From Deltaproteobacteria bacterium (GTDB taxonomy: Bacteria; Myxococcota; UBA727; VGSZ01), in assembly GCA_016177705.1 (NCBI GenBank), contig JACOUT010000004.1, positions 248,001-312,000 on the forward strand: 64,000 nt of DNA, in the 5' to 3' direction. Within the stretch, counting starts at the first letter, position 1. Each line of letters begins with the position of its first letter. The notes beneath the pieces were generated by a model. The model ran no database searches. It was not told where the DNA came from and saw only the letters and a program-made list of their open reading frames with translations. Positions 23,131 through 32,003 of the stretch are shown here, piece after piece. Made by a program: the position numbers and the translations under genes.

Positions 23131-26061
23131 ATGCTGCAACCGACACGGACGATGCTGCCGGGCGTGCTCGCCCTGCTGGCGGCCGCCGGCTGCGACCAGC
23201 TCGACACCCCGCGCGCGGTGTTCGACCGCGACGTGGTGCCGTTCATCGAGCAGCGCTGCAGCGCTGGGCTGTGCCACGGCGTGCCGCAGGGCAGCGAGGC
23301 GAACGGCGACGTGGTCGACTGGGAGCGCCTGTTCTTCTTGACCGACGCCTCGGGGAAGCTGGTCGACCACGACGCCGCTTACGCCGCGGTCAAGCGCGTC
23401 ATCGACCCGAGCCTGCCCAAGTTCTCGTCACTGCTGCGTAAGCCACTGCCCGAGCCCGACGGCGGTCTGCCGCACCAGGGCGGCGCGCAGTTCGCGTCGC
23501 GCCAAGACCCCGACTACCTGGCGATGCTCGCCTGGGTGGCGAGCGAGACCGGCGGCGGCGAGACCGCCGCGCCGCTCGACGGCAACGAGCTCGTGTTCGC
23601 CACCACCGTGGAGCCGGTGTTGCAGACGGGCAACTGCATGACGGCCAACTGCCACGGCGTGCAGGCGGCGGTGCCCTTCCGCCTCGATCCCGGCATCGAC
23701 GGCGAGCGCTCGCCGGCGCAGTCGCGCAAGAACTACGAGCAAGCGCGCAAGATGCTCGCCCTCGACGGCGACCCGACCCAGTCGCGGCTGCTCAAGAAGG
23801 CCAAGCCGATGCACCGCGGCGGCATCGCCCACAAGGGAGGCAACACCTCCTTCCTGTTCACCGACGACGAGGTCGACACGCGCGCCGCGCAGATCCGAGC
23901 TTGGGCTTGCGCCGAGCGCGCCGCGCGCACCGGCGCGCCCTGCGCCGCCGCCGGGGAGCAGCTCATCGAGGGCTTCGTCTTCGTGCGCGGGCCGGTGGCC
24001 CCCGAGGACCCGTTCAACCTCGACGTGTTCGTGCCCGGCACCGACCTCTACTACGCGCGCCTCGAGGCGGGCTCGTCGGTGCCGGTGGAGGTCAACAACC
24101 TGACCGCGTCGCTGCATGCAGCGCCCGCCGACGTGCGCGACCCCGCCGTCGACCCGACCGGCACGCGCGTCGCCTTCGCCATGCGCGGCTCGGCCGATGG
24201 CGGCCACGACCTGTGGGAGCTCGACCTCGCGACCGGCGCCGCACATGCGCTCACCGCCGACGCCGGGCGCGCGACCGGCACGTTGGTGACCAACCGCGAC
24301 CCGACCTACGCGCCCGACGGGCACGTCTGGTTCGTGTCGACGCGCGCCGGCGTGCTCGAGGATCGCGGGCCCAACCTCGACGGCGACCTGTACTCGCTCG
24401 ATCCGTCGACCGGCGCGGTGCAGCGGCGCACCAGCACGCCGCACGTCGAGCGCAAGCCGGTGTTCTTCGCCATCGGCGACGAGGCGGGCGACGAGGTCGG
24501 CTTCACCGCGTTGCGCGAGGCCGTGGGCGGTCAGCGGCGCGGCCACCCGTTCCGCTTCCCGCCGAGCCTCGAGACCGAGTACCACCAGCACTTCGGCATC
24601 ACGCCCGACGAGGATCTGTTCTTCGACATGCGCGAGCTGGCCGATGGCCGCTACACCGTGATCATCGGCGACCTCGACAACGCGTGGCCGGGCGGGCGCA
24701 TCGGCGTCGTCGATCGCAACTTCGGCCCCGAGATCCCGCAGAGCCGCATCGCCGACGCGCCGCCCGCGCTGCCGTTCTACGCCGCCCCGCTCGCCCGCCT
24801 CGACGACGACGCGACCGCCACCGGCGTCACCGGCACCTACTACCAGGACGCGGTCGGCCTGCCCGACGGGCGGGTCTTGACCGCGAGCGCGCCCGGCCCC
24901 TTCGACCTCGGCGACTCGAACGCGGCCCTCGACCTGCGCATCGAGGCGCTGACGCTGGCCGAGGATCTCGACGGCAACGGCGCGCGCTTGGCGACCCGCG
25001 AGACCCTGATCGACGAGCCGGGCGTGGCCGACTTCGACCCCGAGCCGGTGTACGTCAAGAAGCCCGCCGAGCTGCACCCGATCACCTGGAAGCCGGAGGC
25101 GTCCACCGGGCTGTTGCGCCACCAGGGGCTGCCGTTGATCGACGCCATCATCACGGGGCTGGCGCCGACGGGCAGCAAGCCCGAGCGCGCCGACTTCCGC
25201 TTCGTGCGCATGGTGGAAGCGATGCCGCTGCCCGCGTCGGCGGGGTCGGTGCTGCCGGCCGAGGAGACGCGCGCGCTCGTTGCCGGCGCCACCGCGCAGT
25301 CGCTGCGGGGCCGCACGCCGGCGCGCGTGCTGGCCGAGCTGCCGCTCGAGGCCGACGGCACCTTCCAGGTCGAGCTGCCGGCCTGGGTGCCGTTCCGCCT
25401 CGAGGCGCTCGACGCCGATCGCATGGCGGTCGGCACGCTGCACAACCGCTGGTATTACGTGGCGCCTGGCCAGGTGATGACGCAGGGCGCGTCGTCGTCC
25501 AAGCCGGACATCTACTCGACGCGCTGCGCGGCCTGTCACGGCGCGCTCGACGGCGACCCCGACCAGGTGTTCACGCGGCCCGACATCCTCACCACCGCGT
25601 CGGTGACGTTGTCCCGCTACCAGGGCAGGAACCCGCGCCGCCCGCTGCCGCCGCAGCTGGTCGGCGACGCTACGCGCTTCACGGTCGACTTCGTCGACGA
25701 CGTGCAGCCGCTCTTGCAGCAGCGCTGCGCCGGCTGCCACGGTGGCGCCGAGCCGGCCGGCGGGCTGAGCCTGACCGATGCGGCGACCGCGCACTTCTCG
25801 GACGCCTACGAGAGCCTGCTCGCGCCCGGCTTCGGCTCCGGCGGCGAACGCCGCTACGTCGACGACGACGACGGCAGCGCGCGCAGGAGCTTCCTGATCG
25901 AGAAGCTGCGCGGCGAAGAGCTCGAGGCGCCCGAGCGCCTGCCGCCCGGCGCGTCGGCGCACCCGGCCGATCGCGGCGCGGAGCCGCTCACCGCCGAGGA
26001 GCTGACGGTACTGGTGCGCTGGATCGACCTCGGCGCCACCTGGCGCGGGAGGGCACCGTGA
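23131..26061 (+). CDS. HzsA-like c-type cytochrome/propeller lipoprotein
   Basis: 976 aa from ATG at 23131, preceded by GAGGGG. Signal peptide with lipobox (LLAAAGC, Cys21). Four possible heme sites: CSAGLCH (43-49) and CMTANCH (169-175) have CX4CH spacing, while CAACH (799-803) and CAGCH (866-870) are standard. The middle part contains PD40/TolB-like propeller segments (DPAVDPTGTRVAFAMRG, YSLDPSTGAVQRRTST, DEDLFFDM). The arrangement resembles proteins annotated as hydrazine-synthase-alpha-related, but hydrazine chemistry should not be assumed. First gene of the seven-gene unit that ends with ApbE. Its stop overlaps the next start (GTGA). Confidence 0.85.
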   Translation: MLQPTRTMLPGVLALLAAAGCDQLDTPRAVFDRDVVPFIEQRCSAGLCHGVPQGSEANGDVVDWERLFFLTDASGKLVDHDAAYAAVKRVIDPSLPKFSSLLRKPLPEPDGGLPHQGGAQFASRQDPDYLAMLAWVASETGGGETAAPLDGNELVFATTVEPVLQTGNCMTANCHGVQAAVPFRLDPGIDGERSPAQSRKNYEQARKMLALDGDPTQSRLLKKAKPMHRGGIAHKGGNTSFLFTDDEVDTRAAQIRAWACAERAARTGAPCAAAGEQLIEGFVFVRGPVAPEDPFNLDVFVPGTDLYYARLEAGSSVPVEVNNLTASLHAAPADVRDPAVDPTGTRVAFAMRGSADGGHDLWELDLATGAAHALTADAGRATGTLVTNRDPTYAPDGHVWFVSTRAGVLEDRGPNLDGDLYSLDPSTGAVQRRTSTPHVERKPVFFAIGDEAGDEVGFTALREAVGGQRRGHPFRFPPSLETEYHQHFGITPDEDLFFDMRELADGRYTVIIGDLDNAWPGGRIGVVDRNFGPEIPQSRIADAPPALPFYAAPLARLDDDATATGVTGTYYQDAVGLPDGRVLTASAPGPFDLGDSNAALDLRIEALTLAEDLDGNGARLATRETLIDEPGVADFDPEPVYVKKPAELHPITWKPEASTGLLRHQGLPLIDAIITGLAPTGSKPERADFRFVRMVEAMPLPASAGSVLPAEETRALVAGATAQSLRGRTPARVLAELPLEADGTFQVELPAWVPFRLEALDADRMAVGTLHNRWYYVAPGQVMTQGASSSKPDIYSTRCAACHGALDGDPDQVFTRPDILTTASVTLSRYQGRNPRRPLPPQLVGDATRFTVDFVDDVQPLLQQRCAGCHGGAEPAGGLSLTDAATAHFSDAYESLLAPGFGSGGERRYVDDDDGSARRSFLIEKLRGEELEAPERLPPGASAHPADRGAEPLTAEELTVLVRWIDLGATWRGRAP

Positions 26062-30992: not shown

Positions 30993-32003
30993 TTGCTGCC
31001 GACGCTCCTCCTGCTGTTCGCCGCCGCCGATCCCGCGCCGCCAATGGCGCCATCGCCGATCGCTGCACCCGCACGCGAGACGCGGTCGCTGCCGGTGATG
31101 GGCACGGTGTTCGACGTCTCGCTGCCCGCGGGCAGGCCGGACGCCTTCGACGCGGTGTTCGCGATCTTCAAGGACGTCGACGACAAGATGAGCGAGTGGC
31201 GCGAGGGATCGCCGCTCGCCGACATCAACCGCGCCGCCGGCGTGCGCGCCGTCGCCGTGCCGGCCGACCTGCGCGCGTTGTTGCACCGCTCCGTCGAGCT
31301 GGCGGCGCTCACCGACGGCGCCTTCGAGCCCACCTGGGCCGCGCTCTGGGGTCTGTGGGACTTCAAGGCCAAGGAGCCGAAGCCGCCGAGCCCCGACGCC
31401 GTCGCCGCGGCGGTGAAGCTGATCGACCATCGCGGCGTCGCCATCGACGACGCGGCCGGCACCGTGCGCCTCGCGCGCCTAGGCATGAAGATCGGCCTTG
31501 GCGGCATCGCCAAGGGGTGGGCGCTCGACCGCGCCGCCGAGGCGCTGCGCGCGCGCGGCATCACTAGCTTCCTCTTGTCCGCCGGTGGGCAGGTGTACGC
31601 CGGCGGCAAGAATGGTGCTGCGATGTGGAAGGTGGGCGTGCGCGACCCACGCGGCGGGCCCGACGAGTTCTTCGCCGTCATCGAGGTGGCCGACGCCTCG
31701 GTGTCGACGAGCGGGGATTATGAACGCTTCTTCGAGCGTGACGGCGTGCGCTACCACCACATCCTCGACCCCAAGACCGGCATGCCGAGCCGCGGTCTGC
31801 GCTCGGCGACCGTCATCGCTGCCGATGCCACGCTCGCCGACGCGCTCTCGACCGCGGTGATGGTGCTCGGGCGCGAGCGCGGCCTGGCGCTCGTCGAGCG
31901 GCTGCCGGGGGTGCAGGCGCTCGTCGTCGACGATTCCGGCAAGATCGGCGTCACCGCCGGGCTGGGCGCGCGGCTGCACGTGTTGCGGCCGCCGCGGCCG
32001 TAA
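30993..32003 (+). CDS. apbE: FAD:protein FMN transferase (ApbE)
   Basis: 336 aa from a TTG start. A hydrophobic N-terminus (LLLLFAAADPAPP) suggests export. Family motifs: PVMGTVFDVSL, SEWREGSPLADINRAAG, GGIAKGWALDRA and YHHILDPKTGMPSRG, which bind FAD and Mg2+. ApbE transfers FMN from FAD to a Thr of a target protein outside the cytoplasm. It is the last gene of the unit that includes DUF3570 with its DVISGAT motif. The C-terminal 43 codons and the following DNA have a decayed copy at 35528-35849. Confidence 0.94.
   Translation: MLPTLLLLFAAADPAPPMAPSPIAAPARETRSLPVMGTVFDVSLPAGRPDAFDAVFAIFKDVDDKMSEWREGSPLADINRAAGVRAVAVPADLRALLHRSVELAALTDGAFEPTWAALWGLWDFKAKEPKPPSPDAVAAAVKLIDHRGVAIDDAAGTVRLARLGMKIGLGGIAKGWALDRAAEALRARGITSFLLSAGGQVYAGGKNGAAMWKVGVRDPRGGPDEFFAVIEVADASVSTSGDYERFFERDGVRYHHILDPKTGMPSRGLRSATVIAADATLADALSTAVMVLGRERGLALVERLPGVQALVVDDSGKIGVTAGLGARLHVLRPPRP

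Follow-up and report, generated by a model that had tools for sequence, protein, structure and literature searches.

In the MtrCAB conduit, a 26-strand outer-membrane barrel sheathes a decaheme and is encoded together with multi-heme c-type cytochromes. A barrel of another family, DUF3570, has been known since 2021 as a carrier of flavin mononucleotide (FMN). The C. luteolum protein is flavinylated by its cognate ApbE at two [ST]GA[ST]-like sites upon co-expression in E. coli, and DUF3570 genes cluster with DUF4266, whose C-terminal CXC is conserved, with thioredoxin-like proteins and in many cases also with DsbD (main text of PMC8238504, Méheust et al., 2021). The main text of that paper places no cytochromes with DUF3570, its cytochrome passages concerning other proteins. 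Homologues of the alpha and beta-gamma subunits of hydrazine synthase (Hzs) are also described outside anammox bacteria, in a paper whose main text mentions neither Myxococcota nor flavin partners (PMC12758564). Here we describe a gene cluster in which both elements occur, at positions 23131-32003 (plus strand) of a 64,000-nucleotide stretch of a Myxococcota genome (Deltaproteobacteria bacterium, GCA_016177705.1, contig JACOUT010000004.1, positions 248,001 to 312,000), hereafter the window.

The cluster shares with the published DUF3570 clusters the barrel, the CXC peptide, ApbE and two flavin sites, and adds four conserved genes to those set out in the main text of PMC8238504: an HzsA-like protein, a CX4CH lipoprotein, a further lipoprotein (gene 5) and an HzsBC-like protein. 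The gene set recurs far beyond chance: a search with gene 6 and no other query recovered 15 further loci, in which the heme motifs and predicted flavin sites are kept. The cytochromes, distant relatives of the anammox hydrazine synthase, are suggested as redox partners that are new for this barrel. The flavin core has been known since 2021; as far as the searched literature shows (the supplement of PMC8238504 excepted), no description exists of its conserved association with a complex of this hydrazine-synthase-like kind. The first-pass annotation of this DNA, made from the sequence alone, likewise presented DUF3570 as not known to be described with this cytochrome set.

Organization of the cluster

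All seven open reading frames (ORFs) proved open and packed head to tail when the window was checked. The ends of successive genes 1-6 overlap by 4, 4, 16, 1 and 4 bases, and ApbE (gene 7) follows after a 13-base gap.

23131..26061, plus strand: gene 1, HzsA-like tetra-heme lipoprotein, 976 amino acids (Pfam, NCBIfam, profile search)
26058..26534, plus strand: gene 2, CX4CH mono-heme lipoprotein (heme motif, profile match inside gene 1)
26531..26746, plus strand: gene 3, DUF4266 lipoprotein, C-terminus CGCN (CXC) (Pfam)
26731..27846, plus strand: gene 4, DUF3570 outer-membrane barrel (Pfam, AlphaFold, Foldseek)
26923..26979, plus strand: pair of predicted flavinylation sites for ApbE within gene 4 (alignment of Hzs-linked barrels)
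27846..28532, plus strand: gene 5, lipoprotein with LGFQGF motif and Gly-Glu tail (sequence, predicted structure)
28529..30979, plus strand: gene 6, HzsB-HzsC-like fusion lipoprotein, propeller plus di-heme domain (NCBIfam, profile search)
30993..32003, plus strand: gene 7, ApbE, flavin adenine dinucleotide (FAD):protein FMN transferase, TTG start, N-terminal export signal (Pfam)

Pfam identifies gene 3 as DUF4266 (2e-11), gene 4 as DUF3570 (3e-19) and gene 7 as ApbE (2e-85), and the heme motifs are present. The gene identities and the operon proposed in the first-pass annotation hold, as does its view of the barrel as a probable FMN carrier. To call the core a candidate new flavin system, as it did, goes too far, since flavinylation of DUF3570 by ApbE, with DUF4266 as a partner, was published in 2021 (main text of PMC8238504). 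The GTG start of the DUF3570 gene (26731-26746) lies inside the codons of the invariant CGCN end of DUF4266. The first residues of the barrel, VRLQL, are therefore a reading of that motif in another frame, and VRLQL recurs in several relatives.

Cytochromes related to hydrazine synthase

Gene 1 matches in Pfam the middle domain of hydrazine synthase alpha (HZS_alpha, PF18582, 3e-6) and Cytochrome_CBB3. Two N-terminal CX4CH domains (43-49, 169-175) are followed by a TolB-like propeller region, the alpha middle domain and two CX2CH motifs (799-803, 866-870). A profile of 15 orthologues finds 5c2v_A in the PDB at 2e-35. Gene 6 combines a lactonase-type propeller (Pfam) with two CX2CH motifs (457-461, 660-664), and its profile of 16 orthologues finds 5c2v_B at 4e-23 and 5c2v_C at 2e-9. 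The NCBIfam models point the same way below their cut-offs, gene 1 resembling hydrazine synthase alpha and gene 6 the beta-gamma fusion, beta and gamma models, with scores of 63 and 38 bits, far under the respective thresholds of 800 and 1250 bits. By these profile comparisons gene 1 is a homologue of hydrazine synthase alpha, and gene 6 corresponds in the same way to beta and gamma subunits in fused form, a relationship of the two large cytochromes that the first-pass annotation overlooked. Gene 2 contains one CX4CH motif and has no Pfam family above cut-off. Its profile has two matches in the N-terminal part of gene 1, which therefore carries two copies of the gene-2 domain. Heme sites are kept throughout the orthologues (four in gene 1, two in gene 6 and one, the CX4CH, in gene 2), the last motif of gene 1 having CX4CH instead of CX2CH spacing in several.

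The key residues of hydrazine synthase, taken from the list in PMC12758564, fall outside the PDB alignments and were placed by spacing. By this measure Tyr591, the ligand of heme alpha-I, has no counterpart, as no Tyr follows the CX2CH (799-803) of gene 1, and the C-terminus of gene 1 ends too early for His772 (heme alpha-II). In gene 6, Trp498 stands approximately at the spacing of gamma-His144 and is invariant in 16 sequences. An invariant Cys523-Cys524 pair lies near the spacing, though not in alignment, of gamma-Cys165, which forms the third bond to heme gamma-I. As in the non-anammox homologue clusters, alpha-like and fused beta-gamma-like genes occur together here, and with clades I-III in the main text of PMC12758564 the cluster shares the upstream position of alpha, the same missing residues and a Trp about where gamma-His144 would be. 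It differs from those homologues in the two extra N-terminal CX4CH domains of the alpha-like protein, and no FG-GAP/CRTAC1 neighbour was seen.

Conservation of the gene set

Gene 6 was aligned with the first relative found, and a scan of 85,000 species with this two-sequence alignment as the query gave 15 loci (40-61% identical) from metagenome-assembled genomes labelled Myxococcota, Myxococcales, Deltaproteobacteria or Proteobacteria. DUF4266, DUF3570 and the gene-5 lipoprotein lie beside gene 6 in all 15, and genes 1 and 2 in 14, the exception (L046) ending at a contig edge. The window and genome G067, whose cluster is split over two contigs (L073 and L033) and was joined by inference, bring the total to 17 loci, with gene-5 relatives in 16; one locus, L055, is on the same contig as L034. 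Two subgroups differ in gene order, HzsA-CX4CH-DUF4266-DUF3570-P5-HzsBC(-ApbE) in one and HzsA-CX4CH-HzsBC(-ApbE)-DUF4266-DUF3570-P5 in the other. In the barrel tree, a branch with support of 93/89 separates the 17 linked barrels from the rest. A single barrel clade, together with a set kept despite its shuffled order, points to a single origin of the barrel-cytochrome association and its retention through rearrangement.

A separate survey of the phylum (195 genomes, gene-1 profile, E <= 1e-20) gave four loci in three genomes, coinciding with long gene-6 matches. DUF3570 accompanies three of them. The fourth (L074) has the cytochrome trio alone.

Some loci show further features. One cluster (L048:4467-12370) contains two HzsBC-like genes, a local duplication, separated by ApbE and by an unrelated ORF on the minus strand. 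Five-CXXCH proteins occur near two clusters (L034:9602-10891 and L051:1095-2387), the former matching cytochrome c554.

The DUF3570 barrel and its predicted flavin sites

Two predicted flavinylation targets lie in gene 4, D65-x4-A70-T71 (SGAT) and D77-x4-A82-T83 (TSAT). A motif search with [ST][GS]A[ST] had left some linked barrels without flavin sites; the alignment overturned this, D-x4-A-[ST] being present at both sites in all of them. The AlphaFold model is a 16-strand barrel with a mean predicted local distance difference test score (pLDDT) of 87, and resembles porins such as OmpG and OprD in Foldseek. Both sites are located in the loop 71-83 between strands 3 and 4. By strand counting this loop is on the long-loop side, opposite both termini, and is therefore predicted to be extracellular. 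With both sites kept and the C. luteolum relative flavinylated (PMC8238504), the barrel should carry FMN, as first proposed. The cluster resembles MtrCAB in encoding an outer-membrane barrel together with multi-heme c-type cytochromes. Differently to MtrCAB, the barrel is a 16-strand, porin-size, predicted FMN carrier rather than a 26-strand sheath, and the seven-gene cluster contains no MtrA-like, MtrC-like or decaheme protein.

ApbE adjoins the cluster in 7 of the 17 loci and is encoded in the genomes of 14 of the 15 relatives. The host genome has two ApbE genes, one of them gene 7. No FMN_bind domain was detected there (DUF2271 was not searched for), which leaves the barrel as the only recognised substrate beside the ApbE of the cluster. 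The first-pass annotation would have been contradicted by DUF3570 genes occurring mostly without ApbE. Within the phylum, ApbE lies alongside 9 of 11 barrels with flavin sites and none of 8 without (Fisher p = 0.0007, all eight site-less barrels coming from one bacterial family and being non-independent), so that the annotation withstands this test.

In that one family (L035, L037-L039, L041-L044), the barrels are lipoproteins with a DUF4266-like N-terminus and have no CXC, flavin sites or nearby ApbE; a CX4CH lipoprotein is mostly found 1.5-2 kb away. Matches of the fused DUF4266-like segment (L035, L037-L044) are weak for single sequences (E 0.01 to 3), and a two-sequence profile reaches 90% probability over 32 columns. 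The fusion is suggestive only.

DUF4266 and the thiol side

The C-terminal CGC of DUF4266 is invariant in 15 sequences. SGAT or SGAS near its C-terminus in L048, L050 and L051 raised DUF4266 as a second ApbE substrate, an idea rejected as a general feature because the motif is not found in the window or most other loci.

Thioredoxin, searched for with the L031 protein as query and then with a profile, is present in 8 of the 15 decidable loci, a recurrent component that the first-pass annotation overlooked. It adjoins the Hzs-type cluster in L045, L047, L049, L050, L051, L055 and L059, and is fused to ApbE in L073 (8-1405). The same search found none at the cluster in the window, L052-L054 or L056-L058; L046 and L048, both of which begin at a contig end, were undecidable. 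A thioredoxin-like protein is usual, though not universal, in the published DUF3570-DUF4266-ApbE-thioredoxin(-DsbD) clusters; about half of the present loci share it, and the window cluster lacks it. With thioredoxin at about half of the loci, the idea that the cytochromes replace it was dropped. Natural fusions outside the Hzs set, of thioredoxin with DUF4266 (L028:10545-11264) and with ApbE (L029:8057-9517, L030:5603-6976), connect this thiol carrier with the flavin components.

A proposed electron relay

The cluster may be read as an outer-membrane redox unit of two joined halves, a flavin relay and a cytochrome complex. ApbE would attach two FMNs to the barrel, as shown for its relative, and the CXC dithiol of DUF4266 would pass electrons between a periplasmic thiol carrier and these FMNs. 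The alpha-like protein and the fused propeller/di-heme protein would form a complex built like hydrazine synthase, with the gene-2 lipoprotein as a possible shuttle. Gene linkage suggests that barrel and cytochromes exchange electrons, most likely from thiol to flavin, then to the CX4CH hemes and on to the di-heme/alpha hemes, where a small substrate would be reduced. With the FMNs in a loop predicted to face outward, the barrel would pass electrons at or across the outer membrane; transfer across it is our hypothesis, and the substrate, direction and sidedness of the relay are likewise proposals. We give an even chance, direction included, to a relay from thiol through FMN to heme by which a reductase resembling hydrazine synthase is driven at the outer membrane. 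Its most specific form is tentative and rather doubtful: a porin-size barrel with two covalent FMNs at its outer mouth, reduced from inside by the CXC lipoprotein and driving a hydrazine-synthase-like surface enzyme with a new activity on a small molecule, perhaps a nitrogen compound.

Several observations weigh against the relay. The computed evidence leaves the direction of electron flow unfixed, and the flavin loop 71-83 is modelled at a pLDDT of about 43. Locus L074 (G018:C75) has the HzsA-like, CX4CH and HzsBC-like genes without DUF3570, DUF4266 or ApbE, and DUF3570 is frequently found without the cytochrome trio. At the window cluster there is no thioredoxin gene, the nearest lying 8 kb away on the other strand, and the only DsbD-family gene of the host sits elsewhere in the genome.

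With this cluster, a barrel known as an FMN carrier gains a specific, conserved and testable candidate partner. Hydrazine-synthase-like complexes, which bear on the origin of hydrazine synthase, are also placed beside a defined redox relay in another phylum, and the predicted outward position of the FMN loop makes flavin electron transfer across the outer membrane directly testable.

Alternative interpretations

Could electrons run the other way? C-type cytochromes often carry electrons from oxidations inward, and those of the cluster may oxidise an external substrate, with the barrel flavins receiving the electrons and an acceptor in the periplasm taking them up in turn. In favour of this direction, carriers of the flavin and heme type work reversibly, and half of the clusters have no adjacent thioredoxin donor. 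We nevertheless regard it as unlikely, since the DUF3570 partners named in the main text of PMC8238504, DsbD and thioredoxin, are an electron source, and several loci encode thioredoxin as a fusion with DUF4266 or ApbE.

Alternatively, gene 6 may act like MauG/MbnH or cytochrome c peroxidase, in partner maturation or peroxide removal, with the flavin relay as its electron supply. To our knowledge, a conserved four-heme alpha-like partner is not part of any MauG or peroxidase system. The two-heme domain is shared with these enzymes, and the invariant Trp498 lies 37 residues past the first heme His, a position occupied by a catalytic Trp in di-heme peroxidases and by His144 in hydrazine synthase gamma (PMC12758564). 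In contrast to them, the di-heme domain of gene 6 is joined to a propeller and has an HzsA-like protein as its partner, the MbnH model TIGR04039 matches gene 6 at E 0.04 with 13 bits where the cut-off is 363, and no MbnP-type family was found among the seven proteins with Pfam or NCBIfam. This function is quite unlikely.

The two halves may also be mere neighbours under common regulation, the barrel serving, for example, metal reduction or uptake and the cytochromes a separate process. A VIT1 iron transporter in some DUF3570 clusters (main text of PMC8238504) and the solitary trio of L074 fit such an arrangement, which is very unlikely given a set retained in 17 loci despite its rearranged order, a single barrel clade, and a CX4CH lipoprotein that adjoins other DUF3570 types as well.

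That the cluster encodes a hydrazine synthase in the strict sense, so that Myxococcota would have an overlooked enzyme of the anammox type that forms N-N bonds, is hardly credible and was rejected on the missing Tyr591 counterpart, the C-terminus too short for His772 and the change of gamma-His144 to Trp, the NCBIfam scores agreeing.

Gene 5 and neighbouring genes

Gene 5 has a predicted beta-sandwich with the LGFQGF motif and a C-terminal tail of ~22 Gly-Glu repeats (28398-28529). This low-complexity tail accounts for its only Pfam match, TrAA12, which is spurious. Foldseek matches (template-modelling score about 0.3) were not meaningful, leaving the fold unassigned.

Within 8-12 kb downstream of the cluster, the minus strand encodes a thioredoxin-like lipoprotein (40155-40733) and an eight-CXXCH lipoprotein of the cytochrome c7 type (43296-44204). 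About 5 kb upstream, also on the minus strand (16731-18369), are ORFs that resemble NuoD (MGPQHPATHGVLR) and NuoA by eye.

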